From the IMG/VR virus record IMGVR_UViG_3300023184_005537, positions 1-51,295 of that record: a stretch of 51,295 nucleotides of DNA, one strand, 5' to 3'. Positions 3-24,316 of this stretch are shown piece by piece. Below the pieces are notes generated by a model. That model was not told the DNA's origin. It did not search any database and saw only the letters and a list, made by a program, of their open reading frames with translations. How positions within the stretch are numbered: the stretch's first letter is position 1; each line of letters begins with the position of its first letter. The translations under genes and the position numbers were made by a program. This stretch comes from a virus.

Positions 3-701
3 AATGCATCTGGATACACCGGAAAACCAAATGTAGATGCGTGTGAAACAAATAAGGATGTTTGTATTCATGCAAATATCATATTCCCTCAGATATTAAC
101 TGATTGGTGTGTATTGAATGAAATTCCCCTTGGTCATGTATCAAGTGGTTGTATTTATTATGGATCTGGACCAAATGGTACAGGGTTTACTGAAGAAGAT
201 GAACCAAACTTTTCATTTAAACAAAATAATTGCAGTATTTATAGTGGAATAAAGGTTTTGTCAGAAAATATGGTTAGAAAATGGGAAAAATCATATGTGT
301 GGAGATTAAGAATGCCATTTGAAGAATATGATCATCCACGTAATTTGATCAGTAAGATGCTTAAGTATCAAAAACAATTAAAGGCAGAAAACTCAATATC
401 ACACAAACAAGAATTTATTAATGCTTGTATTGAAACTATAATCAGAAAAGTTCCTTATGGAACGTATAATGTAACTAATACTGGATATATTACTACTGAA
501 TTGTTAGTTGATAAATTAAAGAAAACTATTGCAAAAGACAAAATATTTGAATTAATTGATAGTGAAGAATTTTATAAGTCTTGTGCATCTACTCCAAGAT
601 CTAACTGTATTCTTGATAATAGTAAATTGTTATCTACTGGAATCAAAATGAGCAATGTAGAAGATTCACTAAATTATTGTTTAAACAACTGGAAATCATG
701 A
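3..701 (+). CDS. NAD(P)-dependent sugar-nucleotide reductase/epimerase, C-terminal part
   Basis: The gene is cut by the left edge; the frame is open from base 3, well before the first in-window start-like codon (TTG at 114). The visible 232 residues begin with ASGYTGKPNVDACE, which resembles the mid-part of RmlD-like short-chain dehydrogenases, followed by a GHVSSGCIYYGSGPNG segment that fits the serine/tyrosine catalytic region. The Rossmann N-terminus is outside the window. Its stop overlaps the ATG of the RmlB-like gene (ATGA at 698-701), so the two are translationally coupled and probably act in one deoxysugar pathway. The exact substrate is not determinable. The family assignment is by resemblance and moderately sure. 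Confidence 0.6.
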   Translation, partial: NASGYTGKPNVDACETNKDVCIHANIIFPQILTDWCVLNEIPLGHVSSGCIYYGSGPNGTGFTEEDEPNFSFKQNNCSIYSGIKVLSENMVRKWEKSYVWRLRMPFEEYDHPRNLISKMLKYQKQLKAENSISHKQEFINACIETIIRKVPYGTYNVTNTGYITTELLVDKLKKTIAKDKIFELIDSEEFYKSCASTPRSNCILDNSKLLSTGIKMSNVEDSLNYCLNNWKS

Positions 702-1657
702 ATATATTAATAACAGGCGGATGTGGATTTATAGGCAGTCACTTTATTGAAGAAATTCTTAAACGTGATGACGTTGTAAAAGTTTATAATATTGATGCTG
801 GAACATATGCAGCTAATAAAACGTTACCATTTCAAGATGATATTAGATATCAAAGATTGAATATGGATATATCTGCTCCGTATTTTCCTGATCAAAAAAA
901 GTATATTGACTCACTTAATTTAGATTATGTAGTTCATTTTGCGGCTGAATCTCATGTAGATAATTCAATTAAGAATCCAAAAAAGTTCATTGATACTAAT
1001 ATTAACGGTACATTTAATTTGTTGGAAATTTTTAAGAATACAAATATAAAGAAGTTCATCCATATATCTACAGATGAAGTATTTGGTAGCTTAAGTTATA
1101 AAGAAAGAGAATTTAACGTTGATAGTCCATATAGACCAAATAGTCCTTATGCTGCAACAAAAGCAGCCAGTGATTTGTTAGTAAGAAGTTATGTTAAGAC
1201 ATACAATTTCCCAGCTATAATCACAAATTGTAGCAATAATTTTGGTTCAAGACAATATTCAGAAAAACTAATACCAGTATGTATTAACAAATTGAAGAAT
1301 AAGGAAAAGATTCCATTATATGGTAATGGAGAGAATATCAGAGACTGGATCTATGTTAAAGACCATGTTAATGCCCTAATTAATATTCTATTAGATGGTA
1401 TTGTAGGAAAACAATACTTGATTGGGGGTAACAATGAAATGTCTAATATACAATTAATATACTTAATTGTTGCTACGTATGAAACTCTTACAAATCAAAA
1501 AGTTGACTGGGAATGGTTTGAATATGTAACAGACCGTAAAGGACATGACTTTAGATATGCAGTTGACACCAAAGACTTTCAAATAGAGTTTAAAAACTTC
1601 AAATTGACAGATTTTAATGAAAACTTAAAAGAAACAATTAAGTCTTATATTGTTTAA
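698..1657 (+). CDS. rmlB: dTDP-glucose 4,6-dehydratase (RmlB type)
   Basis: This 319-residue extended SDR enzyme would convert dTDP-glucose to dTDP-4-keto-6-deoxyglucose in the cytoplasm using bound NAD. The N-terminal GGCGFIG (7-13) binds the cofactor. HFAAESHVD (80-88), STDEVFG (124-130, with the Thr-Asp-Glu triad of 4,6-dehydratases), YAATK (151-155) and a late DRKGHDFRYAVD box are all RmlB hallmarks. The ATG at 698 is chosen over an upstream TTG because it begins exactly at the Rossmann strand and gives the ATGA overlap with the previous gene. The 3' end overlaps the convergent LhgO-like gene by 20 bases. No RmlA homologue was recognised in the window, so the host may supply dTDP-glucose. 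Confidence 0.9.
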   Translation: MNILITGGCGFIGSHFIEEILKRDDVVKVYNIDAGTYAANKTLPFQDDIRYQRLNMDISAPYFPDQKKYIDSLNLDYVVHFAAESHVDNSIKNPKKFIDTNINGTFNLLEIFKNTNIKKFIHISTDEVFGSLSYKEREFNVDSPYRPNSPYAATKAASDLLVRSYVKTYNFPAIITNCSNNFGSRQYSEKLIPVCINKLKNKEKIPLYGNGENIRDWIYVKDHVNALINILLDGIVGKQYLIGGNNEMSNIQLIYLIVATYETLTNQKVDWEWFEYVTDRKGHDFRYAVDTKDFQIEFKNFKLTDFNENLKETIKSYIV

Positions 1658-2852
1658 TTTTATCAACTATATAATCTGCAATAGATAGTGATGATGTTGC
1701 AGCTGGACTAGGAGCATTAATTACATGATAAATGTTATCATCACTTATTATTTCAAAGTCTGAGATAAGTTCTCCGTTTGGTGACATAGCTTGGGCTCTT
1801 ACACCTGATCCAGCATATTCAATATCATCTATACTAATTGACGGAATCAATTTTTGTAAAGATTTGCAGAAATGATATTTGCTAATAGATTGTCTTAGTT
1901 CTGATATACACATCCACTTGTGTTTGTATATAAATTTCCACAATCCTTTAAATGTAATATAATCCCATATATCAAATAAATTGATGTTTGATAATTTGTA
2001 TCCTTCTCTTGAAAATGCTAACACTGCATTTGGACCTGCTTCAATATCACCGTTAATTAACCGTGTAAAGTGTACTCCTAAAAATGGAAACTTAGGATCT
2101 GGTACGGGATAGATTAGATTGTTCACCAACTTCTTAGCATGAGGTTTCAACTTATAGTATTCTCCTCTAAATGGAATTATTTTAGAATCAATTTTGGTTG
2201 TCAACTTAGCAATCTTGTCACTGTATAATCCTGCACAATTAATAATTGTGTCTTTTTCTGAAAATTGTATATCAATTTCTTGAGAGTCATTAGATGAAAT
2301 TGTTATTGTTTGATTTGTGATTGAAACAACCTTTGCATCAGTAATAATTTGATGTCCTTTGTCCAACAATAGTTGTTTTAACTTATTAATGACTTTGTGA
2401 TAATCAACAATACCTTCTTGAGGTACGTGTAATGCGTTCTTGACATTTTTGTTTACAAACGGTTCAATTTTATAAATTTCTTCTTGGTTAGATAGAAATT
2501 TTAATCCTTGTAATCCGTTTTTTGTTCCACGGTCATATAAATCATTTAATCTTAAAGATTCTTCATCATTTGTTGCTACTACTAATTTACCACAAATTTC
2601 ATGAGGGATATTATATTCTTGACAAAATGATGTCATCTGTTTGATACCATCAACCGCAAGTTTTGCTTTTAATGAACCTGGTTTGTAATACAACCCACAA
2701 TGTAACACTCCACTATTATGAGTGCTTTGATGTAAACCAACATCACTTTCTTTTTCAAAAACGGTGATATTAATGTTTTCAAATTTACATGAAAGTTTAT
2801 ATGCAGTTGCAAGTCCCACAATTCCCCCACCAATTATATAAGCGTTACTCAT
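1638..2852 (-). CDS. FAD-dependent L-2-hydroxyglutarate oxidase-like protein (LhgO family)
   Basis: A 404-residue FAD oxidoreductase of the DAO superfamily. The dinucleotide-binding fold is at the N-terminus (IIGGGIVGLATAYKL, about 6-20), followed by HNSGVLHCGLYYKPGSLKAK, the signature of the LhgO/L-2-hydroxyglutarate dehydrogenase family. Length matches the family (about 400). LhgO normally oxidises L-2-hydroxyglutarate to 2-oxoglutarate with electron transfer to quinones or oxygen. Here it is the last gene of the leftward operon, overlapping the nucleotidyltransferase-like gene by 4 bases, so an alternative role oxidising a sugar-acid or hydroxy-acid intermediate of glycan synthesis is possible. 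That role is inference; family membership is secure. Confidence 0.82.
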   Translation of the reverse strand: MSNAYIIGGGIVGLATAYKLSCKFENINITVFEKESDVGLHQSTHNSGVLHCGLYYKPGSLKAKLAVDGIKQMTSFCQEYNIPHEICGKLVVATNDEESLRLNDLYDRGTKNGLQGLKFLSNQEEIYKIEPFVNKNVKNALHVPQEGIVDYHKVINKLKQLLLDKGHQIITDAKVVSITNQTITISSNDSQEIDIQFSEKDTIINCAGLYSDKIAKLTTKIDSKIIPFRGEYYKLKPHAKKLVNNLIYPVPDPKFPFLGVHFTRLINGDIEAGPNAVLAFSREGYKLSNINLFDIWDYITFKGLWKFIYKHKWMCISELRQSISKYHFCKSLQKLIPSISIDDIEYAGSGVRAQAMSPNGELISDFEIISDDNIYHVINAPSPAATSSLSIADYIVDKIKQYKT

Positions 2853-3310
2853 AGTTTTTTTAACAAATCACTTGAAGAAAATATCTTTGGCATAGGTAGT
2901 ACACATTCTTCAATGTCATATTCTTTGCAAGTTAAACTTTCTGGTGCTACTAAATTAGATCCTTGACGGTCACCACTATTAAAAAATGCTAATTTATTAT
3001 CTGGATACTTTTGTCTAAAATACTTTAGTGATTCACATTGGGTTTTATCTTTATCAATTGAAATGAAAGTTTCATCAACAGATTTTAAATTTTTTACAAT
3101 ATTAATTCTGTGAATTTCATCCATAAATTCTTTTGATCCCTTTAATGCACGTTGATAATCACTATTTACAATAGCAACCAACCAATCACATTGTTCTTTT
3201 GCTCCGTTTATATATTCAATGTGACCATAATGAATAGGATTAAAATAACCGGATACAATTCCAATTTTTTTACTTTTATATTCTGGTAAGTTTGTTAATT
3301 CAGTAATCAT
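2849..3310 (-). CDS. Cytidylyltransferase-like nucleotidyltransferase (RfaE-C/TagD type)
   Basis: A 153-residue protein of the HxGH nucleotidyltransferase superfamily. GYFNPIHYGH near the N-terminus contains the HxGH nucleotide-binding box, and SSSDLL at the C-terminus occupies the place of the ISTT/S motif. Such enzymes join CTP or ATP to a phosphorylated polyol or sugar (for example glycerol-3-phosphate, or heptose-1-phosphate in RfaE/HldE). Start and stop overlap both neighbours by 4 bases, which fits a tightly coupled operon. The GHMP kinase of the same operon could supply a sugar-1-phosphate, which would make a heptose-like route plausible, but the substrate cannot be read from sequence. 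Confidence 0.75.
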   Translation of the reverse strand: MITELTNLPEYKSKKIGIVSGYFNPIHYGHIEYINGAKEQCDWLVAIVNSDYQRALKGSKEFMDEIHRINIVKNLKSVDETFISIDKDKTQCESLKYFRQKYPDNKLAFFNSGDRQGSNLVAPESLTCKEYDIEECVLPMPKIFSSSDLLKKL

Positions 3311-5174: not shown

Positions 5175-6350
5175 TTATATATTATTTAAAATGTTTAGTA
5201 GAGTATCAATCTTTTCTCTTTGAAGGCCTGGATAATTACCAATATACCAACCAAAGTGATGAACATAATCTACATTCTTAAACTTAGAATAGTCAATATT
5301 AAAATGTTTCTTTATATATGGTTGACGTAGTTGGTTTCCACCACCTGACATACCTCTTCTAAATTCAATACCTTTGCTTCTCAGAGTTTCTTCAACTACA
5401 TTTCTTTTTTCAAATGTACCGTCTTTTAGGATAACAATGAAAGCATAATTACATTGTCCGTCAACTTCAATGTCAGTTACATACTTGTCTTTATTTAGAT
5501 TTTCAATGAAATATTTAAAATTATCAACTCTCTTTGTATTGTTACTATCCAGTTTTTTGAGTTGAGATAAACCTAGTACAGCATTTAATTCAGTGCTTCT
5601 AAAATTATGAGACGGACGTAAGAAGATAAAATCTTTGTTCAAATCAGGATTATCTTCAATGATTTTGTTTTTAAAATCATTGTCCGTCATTTCTCTTGTC
5701 ATACCATGTGAACGTAATGCTCTACAGATTTGATAGAAATGATTGTCATTGGTACAAATCATACCACCTTCAATTGTAGACATATGATGTGCAAAGTAGA
5801 AACTGAAATTGCTAGCAAATCCATATGATCCTACTTTTTGACCTTTGAATGTTGTACCGTGTGATTCACATACATCTTCAATCAATAGGATATTTTTTTC
5901 TTTACATAGATCCAACAATTCTTGGGTCAATCCATTAATTCCCAATACATGAGTTAAGAATATAGCTCTTGTTTTTGGAGTGATTAGTGTCTTGAGAGTA
6001 TCAATATCAAAAGAAAAGTTCTTTAGGTTGATATCACAAAAGACTGGTGTGAATTTTGTAAATAAAACAGATGAAATATCAGAGATCCAAGTTAATGGTG
6101 GAACAATAATTTCACCATCTTCATGAATATAGTTGAGTGCTAACATTGTTAATTCATTTGCTGATGCTCCTGAATTGACCATTAAGTTATACTTTGTACC
6201 TAACCATTGTCCCCATGCATTTTCAAATTCAACTACTTTTGGGCCATTGGTAAGTTTAGGGATTGGAGATTGACTTAAAAAATTGATTAGTGATGTAACA
6301 TCTTCTCTATCAATATTGTCTTCCATTAAGGGTAAATAAAATTGATTCAT
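5175..6350 (-). CDS. PLP-dependent sugar C-3 dehydratase of the DegT/ColD type
   Basis: A 391-residue member of the DegT/DnrJ/EryC1/StrS fold-type I family. Substrate-binding and PLP features are visible: NSGASANEL (59-67), LIEDVCESHG (156-165, with the Asp that contacts the pyridine nitrogen) and FRSTELNAVLG. The position of the Schiff-base lysine is occupied by His188 (SFYFAHHMSTIEGG), as in ColD and E1, which remove the 3-hydroxyl instead of transaminating. The length matches ColD (about 390) and the CxC iron-sulfur cysteines of E1/RfbH are absent, so ColD is the best model: GDP-4-keto-6-deoxymannose to the 3,6-dideoxy ketose, with PMP regenerated from glutamate. A GDP-mannose dehydratase is in the same operon. 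A promoter lies just upstream (6360-6388). Confidence 0.82.
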   Translation of the reverse strand: MNQFYLPLMEDNIDREDVTSLINFLSQSPIPKLTNGPKVVEFENAWGQWLGTKYNLMVNSGASANELTMLALNYIHEDGEIIVPPLTWISDISSVLFTKFTPVFCDINLKNFSFDIDTLKTLITPKTRAIFLTHVLGINGLTQELLDLCKEKNILLIEDVCESHGTTFKGQKVGSYGFASNFSFYFAHHMSTIEGGMICTNDNHFYQICRALRSHGMTREMTDNDFKNKIIEDNPDLNKDFIFLRPSHNFRSTELNAVLGLSQLKKLDSNNTKRVDNFKYFIENLNKDKYVTDIEVDGQCNYAFIVILKDGTFEKRNVVEETLRSKGIEFRRGMSGGGNQLRQPYIKKHFNIDYSKFKNVDYVHHFGWYIGNYPGLQREKIDTLLNILNNI

Positions 6351-6394: not shown

Positions 6395-7357
6395 TTAATT
6401 TGGAAACACTTCTAGTATTCTATTTGTATTGAATTTAAAATCTAATACATATCCGTTGTATTTGCTTATAATCTTTTGTTTTACTATACTGTCAGATACA
6501 ACCAACACAAATCCACATCCTCCACTGCCTAATAATTTGGCTCCATATGCACCCATATTCATTACATCATCTATAATTTCTTTGGTTTTTGTATTAGAGA
6601 TCAACGGAGATATGCGTTCTTTGCTTAACCAACTTTCATATAAACCTTGACCAATAGATTTGATGTCTTCTTTCAAGAACAGATCATATGATTGTTTGGA
6701 GATGTTTAATATATTACGTTTATTATCAATGTCATTTTCATGTGATTTTGCAATAACATCTGTATTACGTTGTTCATCTGTATATATTAAAGTAAATGAA
6801 TTTTGTAATTCTTGGGTAAATTCCTCTGTTACAGGCATTGGTTTGACGTAAAAGTTGCCATGTGTATCAATTTCAATACTACTAAGACCACTTGATAATG
6901 GCCAGATTTGATCTTGTATTCCCCCACTTTCTTTTAATACATTACGTTCAATATCAATTGCAGAATGAATTATCTGATTTTTTGAAAGATTCAACTGTTT
7001 TACTTTGTTAATTAAACAACATATACCAATACAATACGATGATGAACCTCCCAATCCGGTTCTAGCTGGTATATCTGAAAATGAAAACAACTCAATTGGT
7101 TTATCTACGTTGAAGTATCTTAATGTTTCTCTGATTAGAGGATTTTTAATTTCATCTATTGTATCAACCAATTCATATTTTGAATATGTACAAAGATATT
7201 GTTTTGATACAATAGATGGACGATATCTCATTGATAAATAACAATATTTATCAATTGTGGTTCCTATTATAAAAGATCCATAATTTTCATAGAATGATTT
7301 ATAGTCAGTTGATCCGCCAAATAAAGATATTCTAAATGGAACTTTTATAATATTCAT
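6395..7357 (-). CDS. GHMP-family sugar kinase (HddA/fucokinase-like)
   Basis: A 320-residue GHMP kinase. Motif 1 is PFRISLFGGSTDY (7-19), the ATP-binding motif 2 is ARTGLGGSSSYCIG, and motif 3 is AKLLGSGGCGFVLV near the C-terminus. The N-terminal FGGSTD box and the length are typical of D-glycero-D-manno-heptose 7-phosphate kinase (HddA) and related sugar-1-kinases, which make sugar-1-phosphates for nucleotidyltransfer. Two nucleotidyltransferase-like genes (2849-3310 and 16073-16891) are in the same operon and could act next. No GmhA or GmhB homologue was seen, so a heptose route is only one possibility; fucose or galactose salvage kinases are alternatives. Confidence 0.82.
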   Translation of the reverse strand: MNIIKVPFRISLFGGSTDYKSFYENYGSFIIGTTIDKYCYLSMRYRPSIVSKQYLCTYSKYELVDTIDEIKNPLIRETLRYFNVDKPIELFSFSDIPARTGLGGSSSYCIGICCLINKVKQLNLSKNQIIHSAIDIERNVLKESGGIQDQIWPLSSGLSSIEIDTHGNFYVKPMPVTEEFTQELQNSFTLIYTDEQRNTDVIAKSHENDIDNKRNILNISKQSYDLFLKEDIKSIGQGLYESWLSKERISPLISNTKTKEIIDDVMNMGAYGAKLLGSGGCGFVLVVSDSIVKQKIISKYNGYVLDFKFNTNRILEVFPN

Positions 7358-7388: not shown

Positions 7389-7919
7389 TTACTTCTCATT
7401 ATAAAAATCACCCCATTCAATAATTAGAGTTGGTTTTTTTGATTCATATGCTCTTGAATAAGTATCAAATACTTGTTCAGGTTCATCTAATCTATAGATA
7501 TCAATGTTAGGACACATTTGTTTAAATATATTTGTATAATCTCCTACATGTTGATGTTGGGGGTGTAATGGACGTTCAGATCCAATTGCAGTACGAATAA
7601 TTAATGGTGTTTTATATGGATTGTCTGACATCAATGAGATTTTATCCAAATGATTTGCTATCTGATTTGTTGCCAATAATAGAAAATTCCATCTTGGATA
7701 GATTGAAATTGGGTGATATCCATTAAATGACATACCAATTGACATACCCATTTGCATATCTTCATTGACTGGAAATTCTATCAATTTCTTTGCGTCTATA
7801 TCTTTTAATGTATTTGATATTGCTGTTCCTGGTACCGCAACGGCTTGTCCCAAAAAGATAGTATCTGGTTTTTCTCCAAGCCATGTCATTGCACGTTTTA
7901 ATTCATCGAAGTATTTCAT
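7389..7919 (-). CDS. Minimal E1-beta/transketolase-type ThDP pyrimidine domain
   Basis: A 176-residue protein matching only the pyrimidine-binding domain of pyruvate dehydrogenase E1 beta-like proteins. The conserved Glu that activates ThDP is likely in FPVNEDMQMGMSIGMSFNG; LIIRTAIGSERPLHPQHQHV fits the E1-beta active-site loop. Normal E1 beta is about 325 residues with a C-terminal transketolase_C domain, absent here. It ends the two-gene unit with the PP-domain gene one base upstream, so the pair should form one ThDP enzyme. In a sugar operon this suggests two-carbon transfer, analogous to AviB1/AviB2 or YerE, rather than central metabolism. That function is inference. Confidence 0.75.
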   Translation of the reverse strand: MKYFDELKRAMTWLGEKPDTIFLGQAVAVPGTAISNTLKDIDAKKLIEFPVNEDMQMGMSIGMSFNGYHPISIYPRWNFLLLATNQIANHLDKISLMSDNPYKTPLIIRTAIGSERPLHPQHQHVGDYTNIFKQMCPNIDIYRLDEPEQVFDTYSRAYESKKPTLIIEWGDFYNEK

Positions 7920-7920
7920 A

Positions 7921-8523
7921 TTAAAATTGAATTCTTTGTCCTGTTCCTGCGTGTGGATATTTAGATTGATATTTGTAATAAATTATTTTTGGATTATTAT
8001 CACCTTCAAAATTTAAGATGTTTGTATTCCATGTTTTTCTAGTATCTGTACATACAGATTTGTTGTTGTCTTCAATAATCCATGTAATTGGTAGATCATG
8101 ATACAAAGAATATTTATAATTTTCATAAAAACATCCTGTTTGTGAAGTCATGTCACCAACAAAACAATACACATGATCATTACTATTTTTTAGTTTATTG
8201 GAGTATGCTACTCCGCATGCAATTGGAATTACACCTGTTACAATTGCGGAACTAAAAATGTTATATTCTGGATAACACAATGCAATTGACCTTCCATTTT
8301 GGATGTCTAATAATAATCTATCTTCAGGAACACCTTTTAATAGACATTGATAATGTGATCTCCATGTACAAAATACCCAATCATTTGATTTAATATTTTT
8401 AAAAATATTGATCATTTGATCTTCATTTCCGTCATATAAATGAACAGGAGCTAATATCTTTTTTTGTTGAAACAAGTCACAGACTTTAATTTCAAAGTTT
8501 TTTAATTGTTCAGGCGTATACAT
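7921..8523 (-). CDS. Minimal E1-alpha-type ThDP diphosphate-binding domain
   Basis: A 200-residue protein resembling the PP domain of E1-alpha (pyruvate/acetoin dehydrogenase). FCTWRSHYQCLLKGVPED fits the E1-alpha N-terminal region, AIVTGVIPIACGVAYSNKLK the helix before the ThDP motif, and GDMTSQTGCFYE with IIEDNN about 27 residues after the GD forms the GDx(n)NN thiamin/Mg-binding motif. The family is usually about 360 residues, so this is a compact version. The ATG at 8523 is chosen because it lies 4 bases after the stop of the upstream gene; a longer reading from TTG at 8598 would overlap that gene by 70 bases. It pairs with the Pyr-domain gene downstream. Confidence 0.78.
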   Translation of the reverse strand: MYTPEQLKNFEIKVCDLFQQKKILAPVHLYDGNEDQMINIFKNIKSNDWVFCTWRSHYQCLLKGVPEDRLLLDIQNGRSIALCYPEYNIFSSAIVTGVIPIACGVAYSNKLKNSNDHVYCFVGDMTSQTGCFYENYKYSLYHDLPITWIIEDNNKSVCTDTRKTWNTNILNFEGDNNPKIIYYKYQSKYPHAGTGQRIQF

Positions 8524-8527
8524 ATTT

Positions 8528-9484
8528 TTAAATGTGATTTTTAATATACCATTCAACGGTTTCTTTAATTCCTTCTTCAAATGTAAATTTTGGAACAAAT
8601 CCTAATTCAGATACAATTCTTTGATTACTTACCATTCTGAATGGAATTGTTGTTGGTTTGCTATTGTCATAAATAACTTCAGGTGATTTGTTTGTAGCGT
8701 GTAAAATTGCAGTTACTATATCACCTATGGTTATTGCTGTTCCTGATCCTATGTTATATGGTCTCATAGGTACACCTTTCTCTAATACTAACAAAGAAGC
8801 ATTTACAACATCTTTAACATATAAGAAATCTCTAACAACATCAGGTGATCCCCATACAACAAAAGGATTTTCATTATTCAATACTCTTTTAATAAGAGCA
8901 GGAATAACATGACAAGTTTTTAAATTAAAGTTATCATGCGGACCATATATAGCAGTACCTCTCGCTAGTAATATTTCAGTGTTTGAAAATTTAGAAACGT
9001 GTTCCATCAACTTTTCTCTGTATCTTCTCATCCAACCATATCCAAAATACGCTTTGTATGGTTCATCAGTCCAAAATTCATCTTCTGTTAATGGATATCT
9101 TTTGTCAGGATATCCAGTTGAACTATTCAAATCAAAGAATTTTTTAATGTTACATCTATTACATGCATCAAGTACATTACCAAGCAATGAAATATTACTG
9201 ATTGAAGCTTGGATGTCAGTTGGAACAGTAGAAGGATGTGCAATTCTTCCTGCAGAATGAACAACATAATCAGCACCATCAATCAATTTAATACAATCAT
9301 CTACACAATTTAGATTTAAATTTTCATATATTTGTATTCTATCATCATTAACTTGAAGTGGTGATTTGTGTGTATTAGTTCTTACAATTGCTCCTCTATT
9401 TAAAAGTTCCAATATATAACTGGAACCTATAAATCCCGCTCCACCTGTTACAACAACAATTTTATTTTTAAAAAAGTCACTCAT
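8528..9484 (-). CDS. NAD-dependent epimerase/dehydratase, Fcl-like
   Basis: A 318-residue extended SDR protein. GGAGFIG at 14-20 binds NAD(P). NSSTGYP replaces the usual SS(x)YG box, and the catalytic motif reads YGWMR (149-153): the Tyr is present but the usual Lys is Arg. CHVIPALIKR and RDFLYVKDVV match GDP-fucose synthase-like proteins. It could be a sugar epimerase/reductase acting on the 4-keto product of the dehydratases in this operon, or a ColC-like partner of the ColD-like enzyme. It overlaps the next Fcl-like gene by 4 bases. The Lys-to-Arg change leaves activity uncertain. Confidence 0.75.
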   Translation of the reverse strand: MSDFFKNKIVVVTGGAGFIGSSYILELLNRGAIVRTNTHKSPLQVNDDRIQIYENLNLNCVDDCIKLIDGADYVVHSAGRIAHPSTVPTDIQASISNISLLGNVLDACNRCNIKKFFDLNSSTGYPDKRYPLTEDEFWTDEPYKAYFGYGWMRRYREKLMEHVSKFSNTEILLARGTAIYGPHDNFNLKTCHVIPALIKRVLNNENPFVVWGSPDVVRDFLYVKDVVNASLLVLEKGVPMRPYNIGSGTAITIGDIVTAILHATNKSPEVIYDNSKPTTIPFRMVSNQRIVSELGFVPKFTFEEGIKETVEWYIKNHI

Positions 9485-10464
9485 ATTTTATTTTTTGTAA
9501 ATGCGTTAAATCTATTATCAATAATGGATTTATTTTCTATGAACCATTCAGTGGTTTTACGTATACCATCTTCAAGTGACACTTTAGGATAAAATCCTTT
9601 TGCGTTTGCACGGTCCATATTTAGGATACGAATTTTATCTCCAGATGGTTTATCAGTCAACCAATTAATTGATAAATTTTGTTTATTGCTGTATTTTACA
9701 ACTAAATCTACTATTTCTTTTATAGAATGTCCCTTTCCAGAACCTAGATTAATAGGATCTGTTATTTGATTTTCTACTGCAAATAACATTCCATATGCAA
9801 CATCATCTGCATGAATAAAATCTCGGATTGGTGATCCGTCACCCCATACTTCTAATACATCATTTTCTTGTGCTTTACGTATTAATGATGGAATTACCAT
9901 TGCATTTAATGGATTAAAGTTGTCATAGTTTCCATATACATTTGCAGGACGAACAATGGAACTATTTTTAGTACCATATTGAATTTGATAAGCTGCAAGT
10001 TGTAACTCACCCATTCTTTTAGTCCAACCAGCAAACTTATCATTTTCTGATGGCATAGTCTTCCATACATCATCTTCAAAAAATACATCTGCGGGTGAAT
10101 ATACACCAACTGAACTTGTATATAGGTACCATTTAACATTAGCTTTTCTGGCTGCTTCTGCCATGTTGGTGTTAAACTGAAGCATAGGTACCATAAAATC
10201 CGCAGGTTGTTCTGCACACATTTTTGGAGATCCCTTGATTCCAGCAACATGAAATACATAATCCATTCCGTTACATATATTTTCACATTGATCTAAATAA
10301 CGTAAATCAACTTTAATAAATGTTGCTTCTGGCCAGAAATCACTTGGTTTATTTAAATCCGCAACAGTAACTATTGCATTTTGGTCAATCAATAGTTTAA
10401 CTAAGGATCTTCCAATCATTCCACTTCCACCTGTGATTAATACTTTCTTATTTGTAAAAAACAT
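9481..10464 (-). CDS. NAD-dependent epimerase/dehydratase, Fcl-like, altered active site
   Basis: A 327-residue extended SDR protein. GGSGMIG at 12-18 is the nucleotide-binding turn, YTSSVGVYS the serine box, and RDFIHADDVAYGM the C-terminal domain motif. The catalytic segment reads FAGWTKR (144-150), so the expected Tyr of YxxxK is Ala145 although Lys149 is kept; the His of the Fcl NSHVIPAL box is also replaced (NAMVIPSL). The protein may be a reductase or epimerase with an unusual mechanism, or a non-catalytic partner of the adjacent Fcl-like protein. It begins after a 45-base gap that contains no clear promoter. Confidence 0.72.
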   Translation of the reverse strand: MFFTNKKVLITGGSGMIGRSLVKLLIDQNAIVTVADLNKPSDFWPEATFIKVDLRYLDQCENICNGMDYVFHVAGIKGSPKMCAEQPADFMVPMLQFNTNMAEAARKANVKWYLYTSSVGVYSPADVFFEDDVWKTMPSENDKFAGWTKRMGELQLAAYQIQYGTKNSSIVRPANVYGNYDNFNPLNAMVIPSLIRKAQENDVLEVWGDGSPIRDFIHADDVAYGMLFAVENQITDPINLGSGKGHSIKEIVDLVVKYSNKQNLSINWLTDKPSGDKIRILNMDRANAKGFYPKVSLEDGIRKTTEWFIENKSIIDNRFNAFTKNKI

Positions 10465-10509: not shown

Positions 10510-11256
10510 TCATAGATTAACATATTTAAATAGACAATCTATTGATGAATTAATTTTTATATTTGGGAATGTACGTTGTATTTTTTCAACGTTTATATCA
10601 CCAACATTATAATAATAATTTCCGTATTGTATATTGGAAAAATGTCTTTCCAATTCATTTATGTAAACTGCGGTATGTGATGAAACATTTACTGTTTCAT
10701 TTTTTCCAGTATCAGTTTGTATGTATTCACTAATAACTTTGTATATTAATTCTTGATCAATATAGTTTAACTTTGAATCTTTTGTTAATGTTAAAGGAAT
10801 GTTGTTTTTTAAATTATGTATGTTTTTTGGTATTTTATTTGTGCCTAAAATACTTGATGGACGTAAGATTAAATAATTATTTTTTGTTTTAACTATTTCT
10901 TCTGAAATTAATTTACACCTACCATAAATATTTTTTACATCATCTATATTGATAGACGCATTTTCTTCTTTTGGTGTATTTTCTGGATATACATCAACAC
11001 TTGAAATAAAAACAAGTTTCTCTGATTGTATTTTGTTTACAATTTTGTCAGTCAACAAAATGTTATCATTGATATAATTGTATAAATTTCCTTGAGCAAT
11101 GTTATTTTTACAATTAAAGGCACAATGAATGACCACATCATATTTGACATTCATTAAATCATTCAGTGATGTTTGTCTTGTATATGAATCACTCTGAATT
11201 TTTGAATGCAAAAATTGACCTAATCCACTATTTGTGCCTGTAATTAATATTTTCAT
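10510..11256 (-). CDS. Short NAD(P)-dependent SDR sugar-nucleotide oxidoreductase
   Basis: A 248-residue protein, shorter than typical extended SDRs (about 300). MKILITGTNSGLGQFL holds the nucleotide-binding glycines, FISSVDVYP the catalytic serine box, and YGRCK the YxxxK pair. The C-terminal substrate domain is reduced. It is likely an RmlD/WcaG-like reductase for a 4-keto sugar nucleotide. It starts with a 4-base overlap with the GDP-mannose dehydratase gene, which suggests it acts on that pathway. The substrate is not readable. Confidence 0.7.
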   Translation of the reverse strand: MKILITGTNSGLGQFLHSKIQSDSYTRQTSLNDLMNVKYDVVIHCAFNCKNNIAQGNLYNYINDNILLTDKIVNKIQSEKLVFISSVDVYPENTPKEENASINIDDVKNIYGRCKLISEEIVKTKNNYLILRPSSILGTNKIPKNIHNLKNNIPLTLTKDSKLNYIDQELIYKVISEYIQTDTGKNETVNVSSHTAVYINELERHFSNIQYGNYYYNVGDINVEKIQRTFPNIKINSSIDCLFKYVNL

Positions 11257-12212
11257 TTAATGATATTTCTATAATATTCTAATAAAAATTCTACACTTTG
11301 ATCTAATGTATACTTTGGTTTCCATCCTGTTTTATTTTCAAATTTACTAACATCTGGAATCTGTAAAGTTACATCTACTGGTCTCAATAATTTAGGATCT
11401 TGTTCATGTGGAACTTTTACATTTGATTTGGATAATAATATTTTAAGAAATTCACCAACAGTTACTGGCTTTTCTACACCAATATTATAATCATCACCGT
11501 AATCACATTTATTAACTGCAATCCAATATGATTCTACGATGTCTCTTACATCAATGATTGATCTTACAGATTCTAGATTACCATATACCAATTTGTCTCT
11601 TTTACCCTTTTCAATTTCAACTACTTGTCTTGCAAATGCACTGGAGAATATATCTGGTCTTCTTGGATTGATATATGTAAATGATCTAGTAAGAACAACT
11701 GGTATGCCATATGATAGATAATAAGATCTCATCAATTTTTCTTGTGCCAATTTACTAATAGCATATACATTGATTGGATCAATCTTATGTGTTTCTTTGA
11801 TGGGAACATCTTCTGGTTTTACTTGACCATAAACTTCAGATGTACTGCAATGATGAATAATAGGTTTTAACTTTAGTATTCTGACTGCTTCTAGTAGGTT
11901 TAGTGTAGAATCTACGTTATTTTTAAAAATTGCAGATGGATATTCAAAACACATTCTTACATTAGCAATTGCTGCCATATTAAAAATGTAATCTGGTTTA
12001 ACTTCTTCTAGTGTTCTGATGACAGAACCCATGTCTGTTAAATCACATGTGTACAATTTGATCTTATCTTTTATGTTTCTAAGATTTCCATTTGATGAGT
12101 CTGTATGCCATCTTGATATGCCTGATACTTCTAAATTTGGAATTGTAGTTAGATATTCTGCTAAATAACTTGGGCCACTGCCACCAATTCCTGTGATTAA
12201 TGCTTTTTTCAT
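11253..12212 (-). CDS. gmd: GDP-mannose 4,6-dehydratase-like
   Basis: A 319-residue extended SDR that would make GDP-4-keto-6-deoxymannose from GDP-mannose. The N-terminal cofactor motif is TGIGGSGPSYLAEYL, the catalytic box STSEVYG, and YAISK the Tyr/Lys pair. The strongest family mark is the C-terminal LLRPVDVTLQIPDVSKF, typical of GMD, together with FTYINPRRPDIF. Its product is the branch point for GDP-L-fucose (Fcl gene at 23372-24316) and GDP-colitose-like sugars (ColD-like gene at 5175-6350). It lies 2 bases after the NanM-like gene and overlaps the short SDR gene. A related GDP-6-deoxyhexose dehydratase is the alternative. Confidence 0.85.
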   Translation of the reverse strand: MKKALITGIGGSGPSYLAEYLTTIPNLEVSGISRWHTDSSNGNLRNIKDKIKLYTCDLTDMGSVIRTLEEVKPDYIFNMAAIANVRMCFEYPSAIFKNNVDSTLNLLEAVRILKLKPIIHHCSTSEVYGQVKPEDVPIKETHKIDPINVYAISKLAQEKLMRSYYLSYGIPVVLTRSFTYINPRRPDIFSSAFARQVVEIEKGKRDKLVYGNLESVRSIIDVRDIVESYWIAVNKCDYGDDYNIGVEKPVTVGEFLKILLSKSNVKVPHEQDPKLLRPVDVTLQIPDVSKFENKTGWKPKYTLDQSVEFLLEYYRNIIK

Positions 12213-13327: not shown

Positions 13328-14281
13328 TTACAAATTTGTATATTTAGTACTAGAATTAATTATGATTGGATATGATTTAATCATTTCTTTAATTCCATAA
13401 TCTAAATTATATTTAGGAGTCCAACCAGTATTTTCTAACTTTTGATTACTTACAATATAATTTCTCTTGTCTTGGTCTTTTGCAAATTCATCTTGTTTGA
13501 TTACAAAGTCAGGAACATATTGTTTGATTTTTTCACACAATTCCAATTTACTTAAATTTGCATCTGATAGACCAACGTTGAATACTTCTCCTTTATATGA
13601 ATCAAAGTTTTGTAACATTCTCACAAAGACTTCAGAAACGTCTCTAACATGAATGTAATTTCGTTTAAAATGAGATTCAAACAACACAATATACTTGTCT
13701 GTTAACGCTTTTAAAACAAAGTCATTTACCAACAAATCTTTTCTGAATCTATATGATGTACCAAATACAGTTGCAAGTCTCAATGAAATTGCTCGATTTG
13801 AATCTAGAGCATATCGTTCACCTAGACATTTAGTTATTCCATATGTTGAAATAGGATTTAGTCTGGTATTTTCTGTACAGAATGTATCATTTTCACCAAT
13901 ACCATATCCGCTATTTGTATTTGGCAAAATGATCTTGGTATCTTGACTTGTGTTTTTTACAATAAAATCAATTTGATTTGCATTAACATCTTCCGCTAAT
14001 TTTTTATCTCTGTCACATGCTGGAAATCCTACGATTCCTGCCAATGGATATATGAAATCTACGTTTAGATATTTTTTAAGTTTGTTTTGGTCTCTCACAT
14101 CACCATATACAAATTCTAATTTTTCATTCGCACATAGTGGAAATAATCCCTCTTGTTTATACATAAGATTGTCATATACAGTAATCTTATTGATGTTTAA
14201 TTCTTCAGATACTTTTAGTAATTTTTCAACTAAAATTGTACCAAGATATCCGGCTCCGCCTGTTATTAGTATGTTTCTCAT
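13328..14281 (-). CDS. NAD-dependent epimerase/dehydratase
   Basis: A 317-residue extended SDR. MRNILITGGAGYLGTIL starts directly at the Rossmann fold, PNTNSGYG occupies the serine box, and YGITK is the YxxxK motif. HVRDVSEVFVRML and a C-terminal TGWTPKYNLDYGI are typical of nucleotide-sugar epimerases/4,6-dehydratases. The ATG at 14281 is chosen instead of TTG at 14326, because a good promoter (14298-14326) lies between the two and the residues ahead of the ATG are non-conserved and Asn-rich. The serine box has Asn-Thr-Asn-Ser, so the exact reaction (epimerase versus reductase) is uncertain. Confidence 0.78.
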   Translation of the reverse strand: MRNILITGGAGYLGTILVEKLLKVSEELNINKITVYDNLMYKQEGLFPLCANEKLEFVYGDVRDQNKLKKYLNVDFIYPLAGIVGFPACDRDKKLAEDVNANQIDFIVKNTSQDTKIILPNTNSGYGIGENDTFCTENTRLNPISTYGITKCLGERYALDSNRAISLRLATVFGTSYRFRKDLLVNDFVLKALTDKYIVLFESHFKRNYIHVRDVSEVFVRMLQNFDSYKGEVFNVGLSDANLSKLELCEKIKQYVPDFVIKQDEFAKDQDKRNYIVSNQKLENTGWTPKYNLDYGIKEMIKSYPIIINSSTKYTNL

Positions 14282-14297
14282 ATTTGTTGTAAACTCT

Positions 14298-14326
14298 TTT
14301 ATATTGTTATTTTGATTAATTGTCAA
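14298..14326 (-). promoter_or_regulatory. Candidate sigma70-type promoter
   Basis: On the - strand TTGACA (14326-14321), a 17-base spacer, then TATAAA (14303-14298, 5 of 6). It lies between the stop of the upstream GT gene and the ATG at 14281 of the epimerase gene, 16 bases from that ATG. It supports an internal transcript for the GMD-containing part of the operon and fixes the start of the epimerase. Confidence 0.6.
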
Positions 14327-22872: not shown

Positions 22873-23382
22873 TTAATCAATCTTACACACTAATATATCA
22901 TTTTCAACGTGACCGTCTAAATAATAAAATGAATAGTTTTCATTTATTGATTGTATAAATGATATTATATTTTCAAAATTTAAAACAGAATTATAATTTC
23001 TCCAACATCTGATATCATCTATCATGATAATATGATTTTTATTTTTATGGTTTTTTATATGATTTAATTCTTGCAAAATTGGAAATTCTTCAATTCCATG
23101 TCCTGTATCTCCACCAGAAAAATGGCCATCTAACCAAAAAGTTATCTGTTCATCATATTTATTGATGATATCACCTAATATCACAGCGGAATCTCCCAAA
23201 ACAATATTTACATTTGGATTATTTTTAAATCTTTCTTTTCCAATATCATAAAATTTTTGAGAAATTTCTATAGACGTTATATTTTTATAATTTGAATTTA
23301 ACGCAGATTGAACTCCGTCACCATAAAATGTTCCGGTTTCTATGAATATATCTGAGTATTTTTCTATAAATTTAATTGGCAT
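22873..23382 (-). CDS. SAM methyltransferase-fold protein (FIETGT family)
   Basis: A 169-residue small Rossmann protein. FIETGTFYGDG is a motif I variant, ITSIEISQKFY supplies the acidic residue that would bind the SAM ribose, and WLDGHFSGGDTG with IIMIDDIRCW complete a compact fold. It is paralogous to the gene at 46137-46679, which shares FIETGT, LGDS, ITFWLD and an IDGY/LDGH ending. Its action on a glycan is inferred from position between GT and Fcl genes. It overlaps the Fcl gene by 11 bases. Confidence 0.6.
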   Translation of the reverse strand: MPIKFIEKYSDIFIETGTFYGDGVQSALNSNYKNITSIEISQKFYDIGKERFKNNPNVNIVLGDSAVILGDIINKYDEQITFWLDGHFSGGDTGHGIEEFPILQELNHIKNHKNKNHIIMIDDIRCWRNYNSVLNFENIISFIQSINENYSFYYLDGHVENDILVCKID

Positions 23383-24316
23383 ATGTATTTTTACTATTTT
23401 CTTTAAACCATGTATAAGCTTCTTGTAATCCTTGACGTAATTCTACTTTTGGTTTCCAACCCAAATTAAATAGTTTAGTAGAATCTAATAAACGTTTAGG
23501 AGTTCCATTTGGTTTTGTAGTGTCCCAAATAATATTACCTTTATAACCAACTACATCTTTAATGATTTCAACAATTTCTTTGATTGTATAATCTTCACCA
23601 TAACCAATATTGATAATTTCAGGTGAATTGTAGTTTTCCATCAAAAATACACAAGCGTCTGCTACGTCATATGCATTTAAAAATTCTCTTCTAGCACTGC
23701 CATCACCCCAACACACTACTTCTTCAAGATTATTAATCTTTGCTTCATGGAACCTTCTAATTAAAGCGGGTAATACATGTGAGTTTGTTGGATGGAAATT
23801 GTCATTGACACCGTATAAATTACATGGCATTACACTGATAAAATTATCTTGATATTGTCTATTATATGATTGACATTGAATTATACCTGAGATCTTTGAA
23901 ATTGCATATGGTTTATTGGTTGGTTCCAATTCTCCTGTCAACAAATATTCTTCTTTAACTGGAACAGGTGCATATTTTGGATATATACACACACTTCCCA
24001 AAAACATTAGTTTTTTAACTTTAATATCATGACATGCTTGAATTACATTATTTTGTATAGATAGATTGTCATGAATAAATTCTGCGGGATATACATTGTT
24101 TGCTTGTATACCTCCAACTTTTGCTGCGGCTAAAAAAACATAATCAGGAGTATTATCTGCAAACCATTTATTTACTGCTTTTTGGTCTCTCAAATCTACT
24201 ATATTTTTATTTACAGTTAGTATATTTGTATATCCTTTACTAGTCAGTTCTCTTACTAATGCAGATCCTACTAACCCTTTGTGACCAGCAACAAAAATTT
24301 TATCTGTTTTATTCAT
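23372..24316 (-). CDS. fcl: GDP-L-fucose synthase
   Basis: A 314-residue epimerase/reductase that converts GDP-4-keto-6-deoxymannose to GDP-L-fucose with NADPH. All family marks are present: AGHKGLVGSA (10-19), AAAKVGGIQAN, LGSVCIYPK holding the catalytic Ser and Cys equivalent to E. coli Ser107/Cys109, YAISK for Tyr/Lys, and NSHVLPALIRR with the catalytic His. It completes the fucose pathway with the GMD gene 11 kb downstream in the same operon. It overlaps the GT2 gene upstream by 4 bases. Of the Fcl-like proteins here, this is the only one with an intact active site. Confidence 0.93.
   Translation of the reverse strand: MNKTDKIFVAGHKGLVGSALVRELTSKGYTNILTVNKNIVDLRDQKAVNKWFADNTPDYVFLAAAKVGGIQANNVYPAEFIHDNLSIQNNVIQACHDIKVKKLMFLGSVCIYPKYAPVPVKEEYLLTGELEPTNKPYAISKISGIIQCQSYNRQYQDNFISVMPCNLYGVNDNFHPTNSHVLPALIRRFHEAKINNLEEVVCWGDGSARREFLNAYDVADACVFLMENYNSPEIINIGYGEDYTIKEIVEIIKDVVGYKGNIIWDTTKPNGTPKRLLDSTKLFNLGWKPKVELRQGLQEAYTWFKENSKNTYAN

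Follow-up and report, generated by a model that had tools for sequence, protein, structure and literature searches.

The window analysed here is the complete IMG/VR virus record IMGVR_UViG_3300023184_005537 (51,295 bases). It carries two short adjacent genes for the halves of an E1-type ThDP enzyme, set among genes of sugar metabolism, and the question raised by this locus is which reaction so small an enzyme would carry out beside a sugar 3-dehydratase. Branching of ketosugars has been reported or proposed for three superfamilies of ThDP enzymes, namely DC/YerE, α-KADH2 and transketolase (PMC12247030). The α-KADH2 branching enzymes attach a C2 unit derived from pyruvate to the ketone of a deoxysugar or an analogue, as proposed or shown for individual members (PMC4425429, PMC12247030).

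Domain composition and conservation of the ThDP pair

The PP-domain subunit, of E1-α type (200 aa; 7921-8523, minus strand), and the Pyr-domain subunit, of E1-β type (176 aa; 7389-7919, minus strand), are encoded by open reading frames lying 1 bp apart. A Pfam scan matched the former to E1_dh (59.0 bits, 5e-16; cut-off 22 bits) and the latter to Transket_pyr (36.2 bits, 6e-9; cut-off 27 bits), and gave no match to Transketolase_C (PF02780) in either subunit. Coordinates, lengths and domains agree with the initial annotation of this DNA, which had described two proteins of 200 and 176 aa with PP and Pyr domains only and without transketolase_C. Among PDB sequences the PP subunit matched human PDH E1 α (1.5e-8) and the Pyr subunit matched PDH E1 β (archaeal, 3.3e-9; human, 4.7e-6). 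Single-chain AlphaFold2 models reached pLDDT values of 93.8 (PP) and 91.0 (Pyr); the best Foldseek matches were human PDH E1 α for the PP model (TMq 0.82) and E1 β subunits for the Pyr model (TMq 0.87).

Catalytic positions were assigned by eye from PDH E1 alignments. On this assignment, R55, H57, G123, E151, N153 and H191 of the PP subunit (ThDP/metal and catalytic positions) are unchanged in 34 of 34 sequences, while position 124 is Asp in 29 and Glu in five; E53, Q123 and H124 of the Pyr subunit are unchanged in all 31 sequences compared. The pair thus retains the features by which a ThDP enzyme is recognized: the Pyr domain has its catalytic Glu and the PP domain its metal-binding Asp/Asn. 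The two genes are adjacent in 91 of the 92 loci that hold both and, with the catalytic residues invariant, this means that the minimal pair is real and conserved and not a chance arrangement. In the PP subunits of L034, L043, L054, L065 and L084 the GD motif has Glu in place of its metal-binding Asp (GEM).

Comparison with known ThDP enzymes

Like the window pair, AviB1/AviB2, Pau11/Pau12 and KbDH-α/β of the α-KADH2 superfamily are two-subunit E1-type ThDP enzymes. They are known from actinomycete antibiotics, whereas the present pair comes from a phage. The AviB1/B2-type homologues Pau11 and Pau12 are full-length E1 subunits of 325 and 345 aa (PMC4425429), longer than the 200 and 176 aa found here, as judged by their reported lengths. 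The pair has the separate E1-α-type PP and E1-β-type Pyr subunits of this superfamily (Pfam and models) and its link to deoxysugar ketone formation (see the non-redundant counts below), but not the full-length subunits with transketolase_C in the β chain. It was filed as a minimal variant, not as a member of the AviB1/B2 group, because the Pyr subunit has 176 aa and lacks PF02780. The pair is probably a minimal form of the known E1-type sugar-branching enzymes.

Other known ThDP enzymes differ from the pair or were rejected as assignments. YerE and JanthE (DC superfamily) are single chains in the order Pyr-central-PP, so that superfamily and domain order both differ from those of the pair; a YerE-type lyase was discarded, the pair consisting of two short E1-type chains without TPP_enzyme_N/M/C, and any likeness to YerE would be at most one of action. 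Transketolase was discarded on the absence of the Transketolase_N, Pyr and transketolase_C set (Pfam). AzcB/AzcC (PDB 9u8q), a two-subunit ThDP enzyme with deposited chains of about 165-170 residues, is a structural match to the Pyr subunit, but the identity is 11%, the enzyme is described as an α-imino acid decarboxylase and the Pyr subunit matches E1 β far better. An ordinary PDH or acetoin E1 was ruled out by family cut-offs, and Acinetobacter 'phage' matches to the pair proved to be ordinary acoAB operons.

The 3-dehydratase partner

The constant partner of the pair is a ColD-like PLP-dependent sugar 3-dehydratase (391 aa; 5175-6350, minus strand), identified by its match to ColD, by a His where the PLP Lys would stand and by its ThDP neighbours. 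A His in place of the PLP Lys marks sugar 3-dehydratases such as ColD and RfbH, and not aminotransferases. A GHMP kinase gene lies in the 1,038 bp between this gene and the pair, a distance that bears out the earlier statement that a 3,6-dideoxy-forming gene stands 1 kb away. The best PDB match and nearest solved relative is ColD (2gms, GDP-4-keto-6-deoxymannose-3-dehydratase; 179.8 bits), which shares the His for Lys exchange; perosamine synthetase (129 bits) and a CDP-type 3-dehydrase (115 bits) scored lower. A homologue of the 3-dehydratase was found within 8 kb in 73 of 97 related loci, and His occupies the PLP-Lys position in all 73 (67 at an identity of at least 47% and six at 30-37%).

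Association of 3-dehydratases with ThDP enzymes

IMG/VR was searched with the 3-dehydratase of the window alone, and loci with complete 6-kb flanks were scored for a ThDP enzyme. The ThDP classes were scored by profile HMMs built for this analysis; the transketolase class is a one-sequence profile, the source of which (L171) was checked with Pfam. A ThDP enzyme was present within 6 kb in 52 of the 56 viral loci picked by the window-type 3-dehydratase, and the 6-kb flanks of the other four gave no ThDP match. Loci of RfbH-type 3-dehydratases, a different branch, held a ThDP enzyme in 46 of 50 cases (29 YerE-like, nine minimal pairs and eight transketolases). The control, consisting of loci with a Lys-type DegT aminotransferase, gave 2/38, one of the two positive loci being the contig from which the control query was taken.

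With sequences clustered at 85% identity, the non-redundant counts were 27/29 for the window type, 24/27 for the RfbH type and 2/31 for the Lys-type control (Fisher p against the control of 2.8e-12 and 7e-11, respectively), figures to be read with regard to the differing background of the control phages and to relatedness that clustering reduces without removing.

Exchange of the ThDP enzyme at one locus

Where the minimal pair is missing from a 3-dehydratase locus, the ThDP gene is mostly of another type. Full-size E1 α/β genes fill the slot in L138, L167 and others, a split transketolase fills it in L171 and a YerE-like enzyme, directly before the 3-dehydratase, in L163. The L163 protein scored 298 bits with JanthE (8rph) against 252 bits with acetolactate synthase, and its assignment by sequence as YerE/JanthE-like is therefore of moderate confidence. 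The identity of structure 8rph as JanthE was taken from the literature (PMC12188165).

A quick tree of 50 3-dehydratases implies at least 15 changes of ThDP type, and the exchange can be followed in pairs of closely related loci. L182 and L175 are collinear, with 79-81% DNA identity on both sides of the slot, which holds a split transketolase in the one (L182:3339-5019) and a minimal pair in the other (L175:1773-2899). The 7 kb downstream of the slot are 85% identical in L170 and L168, one of which has a full E1 with two further open reading frames and the other a minimal pair. The dehydratase genes of L105 and L164 are 96% identical, next to a transketolase and a minimal pair, respectively.

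YerE/JanthE-like genes thus take the place of the minimal pair beside the same 3-dehydratase clade. The substrate of YerE, CDP-4-keto-3,6-dideoxyglucose, is itself formed by a 3-dehydratase. Nothing speaks more strongly for ketosugar branching by the minimal pair than the exchange among three superfamilies at a single locus; since the pair travels with the 3-dehydratase and is exchanged in place for branching types, it is probably a sugar-branching enzyme itself. The cassette, found in environmental phages and some bacteria, often comprises a B12-radical-SAM protein, a ThDP enzyme, a sugar kinase, the 3-dehydratase and an SDR. We give even odds to the view that it is an undescribed branched-deoxysugar cassette with an exchangeable branching-enzyme slot, in which phages swap the branch enzyme and keep the 3-deoxygenation. 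The exchangeable slot itself appears to be undescribed, and no published account of phage branched-sugar enzymes or of the function of the pair was found in the open-access papers searched.

Probable modules of the YerE kind were found in phages that also carry the minimal pair. In L007 an RfbH-type dehydratase stands beside a protein that is clearly JanthE-like (594.9 bits, against 260 for acetolactate synthase), with a diverged minimal pair about 3 kb farther along, and in L012 and L016 a JanthE-like/RfbH-type module lies within about 9 kb of a minimal pair/ColD-like module. These JanthE-like and RfbH-type genes are a probable yersiniose-type module in phages. The full-length JanthE/YerE-like enzymes beside RfbH-type 3-dehydratases are located at L007:3332-5143, L012:16845-18632 and L016:15708-17531. 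Auxiliary genes reported from lake viruses include a viral 'acetolactate synthase', a CDP-glucose 4,6-dehydratase and a perosamine synthetase (PMC8226683); this 'acetolactate synthase' may be a YerE-like gene.

Proposed function

We consider it likely that the minimal pair is a carboligase acting on the 3-dehydratase product. In the best reading it is predicted to be a minimal α-KADH2-like carboligase that sets an acyl branch, probably acetyl from pyruvate, on a 4-keto-3,6-dideoxysugar. Each active site of this minimal E1-type enzyme would be built by one PP and one Pyr subunit. Acting downstream of the ColD-like 3-dehydratase, the pair would decarboxylate a 2-oxo acid, most likely pyruvate, and transfer the activated acyl group (acyl anion) to the C4 ketone of an NDP-4-keto-3,6-dideoxyhexose, giving a 4-C-branched deoxysugar. 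The new ketone could then be reduced by nearby SDRs, and glycosyltransferases would attach the branched sugar to a glycan. For yersiniose such a reduction of the ketone after branching is a proposal; for paulomycin it has been shown, with another reductase (PMC4753412).

From these comparisons we infer complex formation, the donor, the acceptor with its nucleotide, the branch position, the product and the destination of the sugar. The full chemistry, a C2 unit from pyruvate placed at C4, stands in our judgement at the midpoint between right and wrong. GDP as the nucleotide of the acceptor is put forward tentatively, as somewhat doubtful. The 4-keto sugar could come from either of two alternative sources in the window, a GMD-like NDP-sugar 4,6-dehydratase (11253-12212, minus strand; NCBIfam gmd 140.5 bits, cut-off 415) or an RmlB-type 4,6-dehydratase (677-1657, plus strand; NCBIfam TIGR01181 346.4 bits, cut-off 365.1). 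Against a firm choice of GDP stand this RmlB-type enzyme and a GDP-fucose-synthase-like (Fcl-like) gene (23372-24316; 465.7 bits, cut-off 500), which could use the product of the GMD-like enzyme and can account for the GMD-like gene. No 4,6-dehydratase was found as a constant neighbour of the cassette in the related loci.

By analogy with YerE and AviB1/AviB2, the initial annotation had proposed that the pair is a ThDP carboligase acting together with the 3-dehydratase beside it. The proposal is supported by the association (27/29 against 2/31), by replacement in the slot and by the co-carriage of JanthE-like/RfbH-type genes, comparative support that goes well beyond the original argument from proximity.

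If this is correct, the pair would be a ThDP carboligase of very small size, and phages would be a source of enzymes that form tertiary alcohols, which are in demand as biocatalysts (PMC12247030). Phages would then encode branched 3,6-dideoxysugar pathways, so far described from bacterial O-antigens and antibiotics, and would change the sugar branch by swapping the ThDP enzyme, diversifying a surface sugar. The reading also offers a function for many phage genes whose present annotation is transketolase-like or unknown.

Alternative readings

The GHMP-type sugar kinase between the pair and the 3-dehydratase (6395-7357, minus strand) is HddA-like, with an NCBIfam HddA score of 131.8 bits that is far under the cut-off of 600. 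Such a kinase is frequent but not constant, occurring in 44 of the 97 related loci and in many of them between the pair and the 3-dehydratase. It would suit a pathway in which the pair builds a free higher-carbon sugar early, the kinase and a nucleotidyltransferase activate it and the 3-dehydratase acts later, as would the split transketolases that can fill the slot and the kinase, nucleotidyltransferase and phosphoheptose isomerase genes of the cluster in cyanophage S-SM2. We regard this order of events as unlikely: more than half of the cassettes have no kinase, including trios in which PP, Pyr and dehydratase genes are directly adjacent; the YerE-like and full E1 enzymes that occupy the same locus do not build carbon skeletons in the pathways known; and no conserved sugar isomerase was found adjoining the pair.

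Two other contexts were also discarded. A heptose pathway as the sole context is suggested by GmhA/HddA-like genes near the S-SM2 homologue, but the kinase is missing in many cassettes. For a phosphonate pathway (ThDP enzyme, CTP-transferase and B12-radical SAM, as for fosfomycin), no PEP mutase came to notice among the genes seen, E1 type is the wrong ThDP family and the dehydratase is a sugar enzyme.

A 3-dehydratase of this kind does not require a ThDP enzyme, since the cyanophages S-CAM7 (L336) and ACG-2014f (L337) carry a GMD-Fcl-ColD-like gene trio with no ThDP gene in the examined flanks, although their dehydratases branch outside the cassette clade. Phage colitose-type cassettes such as these join ColD-like genes to an Fcl-like reductase without a ThDP enzyme, unlike the locus in the window. 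Together with the GMD-like and Fcl-like genes of the window, they speak for a cluster making a plain colitose-like 3,6-dideoxyhexose through GMD, ColD and the Fcl-like reductase, with the pair as an unrelated step of the glycan locus. This is slightly less probable still, as neither the association of 27/29 against 2/31 loci would be expected of an unrelated gene nor the exchange of four ThDP types in one slot beside near-constant dehydratases, and about 17 kb separate the Fcl-like gene of the window from the dehydratase. The trio of these cultured cyanophages, annotated as hypothetical, aminotransferase or CDP-type dehydrase, is likely to encode a colitose pathway.

That the pair is the E1 of a 2-oxo acid dehydrogenase (PDH or acetoin type) in truncated or decayed form, inactive or a decarboxylase/dehydrogenase only, is very improbable, for although the family-level matches are to PDH E1 and each E1 subunit is represented in part only, the scores are far under the PDH cut-offs (92 against 394 bits and 46 against 321 bits), no E2 or E3 gene was present among the neighbours scanned, and in hundreds of phage contigs both halves remain whole and side by side, their catalytic residues unchanged.

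Other members of the cassette

Two SDR genes adjoin the pair (8528-9484 and 9481-10464, both minus strand; Pfam Epimerase), in an order kept in L012, L015, L016, L018 and others. The nearer one may act on the branched sugar as a ketoreductase or epimerase. Both have altered YxxxK motifs, placed by eye and kept in relatives, the Tyr being replaced in one (FAGW[TA]K) and the Lys changed to Arg in the other (YGWMR); the two are perhaps a heteromeric pair. A further SDR (13328-14326, minus strand) is common to 64 of the 97 related loci, and an RmlC-like epimerase is found near the pair in 36. A cytidylyltransferase-like protein (2849-3310, minus strand; Pfam CTP_transf_like; 11/97 loci) and an FAD enzyme of the L-2-hydroxyglutarate oxidase family (1638-2852, minus strand; NCBIfam; 8/97 loci) each belong to one cassette sub-type. 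The FAD enzyme scores 486.7 bits (NCBIfam cut-off 299) inside a phage glycan cluster, and genes of its family also occur in seven related loci and in Verrucomicrobia.

A B12-binding radical-SAM protein is encoded in 61 of the 97 related loci, often directly upstream of the pair; no radical-SAM gene was seen in the window. The protein of L072 (8488-10005; 505 aa) has homologues in 60 other related loci, including, besides phages, the bacterial contigs L092-L094. Its nearest solved structure is the apramycin diol-dehydratase AprD4, with a low score, and C-methylation as its role in the cassette is a guess.

Distribution and fused relatives

An alignment search found 588 stretches in IMG/VR encoding relatives of the pair, of which the best 80 were retained. 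Relatives were also present in 12 genome contigs assigned to Parcubacteria, Bacteroidales, Verrucomicrobia, Acidimicrobiales, Omnitrophota, Prochlorococcus, Desulfobacterales and others; some of these may be viral or mis-binned, because most of them are metagenome bins. Cyanophages S-SM2 and P-TIM68 encode both domains in a single fused protein of 402 aa annotated as 'transketolase central region-containing protein', and PHROG 34187 spans both halves of the pair. With this fused protein and the 588 IMG/VR relatives, the earlier expectation that the enzyme would be new for a phage does not hold as far as presence of the gene is concerned.

The PP and Pyr domains of the fused protein (SSM2_198, PHROG 34187) are homologous to the pair, with identities of 38% and 33-34%, respectively. 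SSM2_198 is one chain beside a zinc alcohol dehydrogenase with no 3-dehydratase nearby, whereas the window has two chains. Since the fused cyanophage homologues adjoin a zinc alcohol dehydrogenase instead, part of the fold family would have another job, and the fused PP-Pyr proteins are likely to be a second sub-family with a different role. Fused proteins adjoining a gene of about 340 aa were observed at L008:15986-17194 and L009:15989-17197 and in L100 and L102; in S-SM2 and P-TIM68 this gene is the zinc alcohol dehydrogenase.

In a 735-kb phage genome the PP and Pyr halves are split by a radical-SAM/SPASM gene. Such a gene stands beside or between the ThDP halves at L010:14379-16597, in this genome, and at L101:7547-9836 (Desulfobacterales). 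The plasmid collection gave distant E1 homologues only (23-30% identity). On a plasmid of Azospirillum ramasamyi (L334:3683-8342) a full-size E1 α/β pair has an SDR gene on one side and a DegT gene on the other, so that the exchanged ThDP slot has its counterpart in a bacterium; the DegT gene that follows the E1 pair has the His-type motif SFFFSHHISTMEGG.
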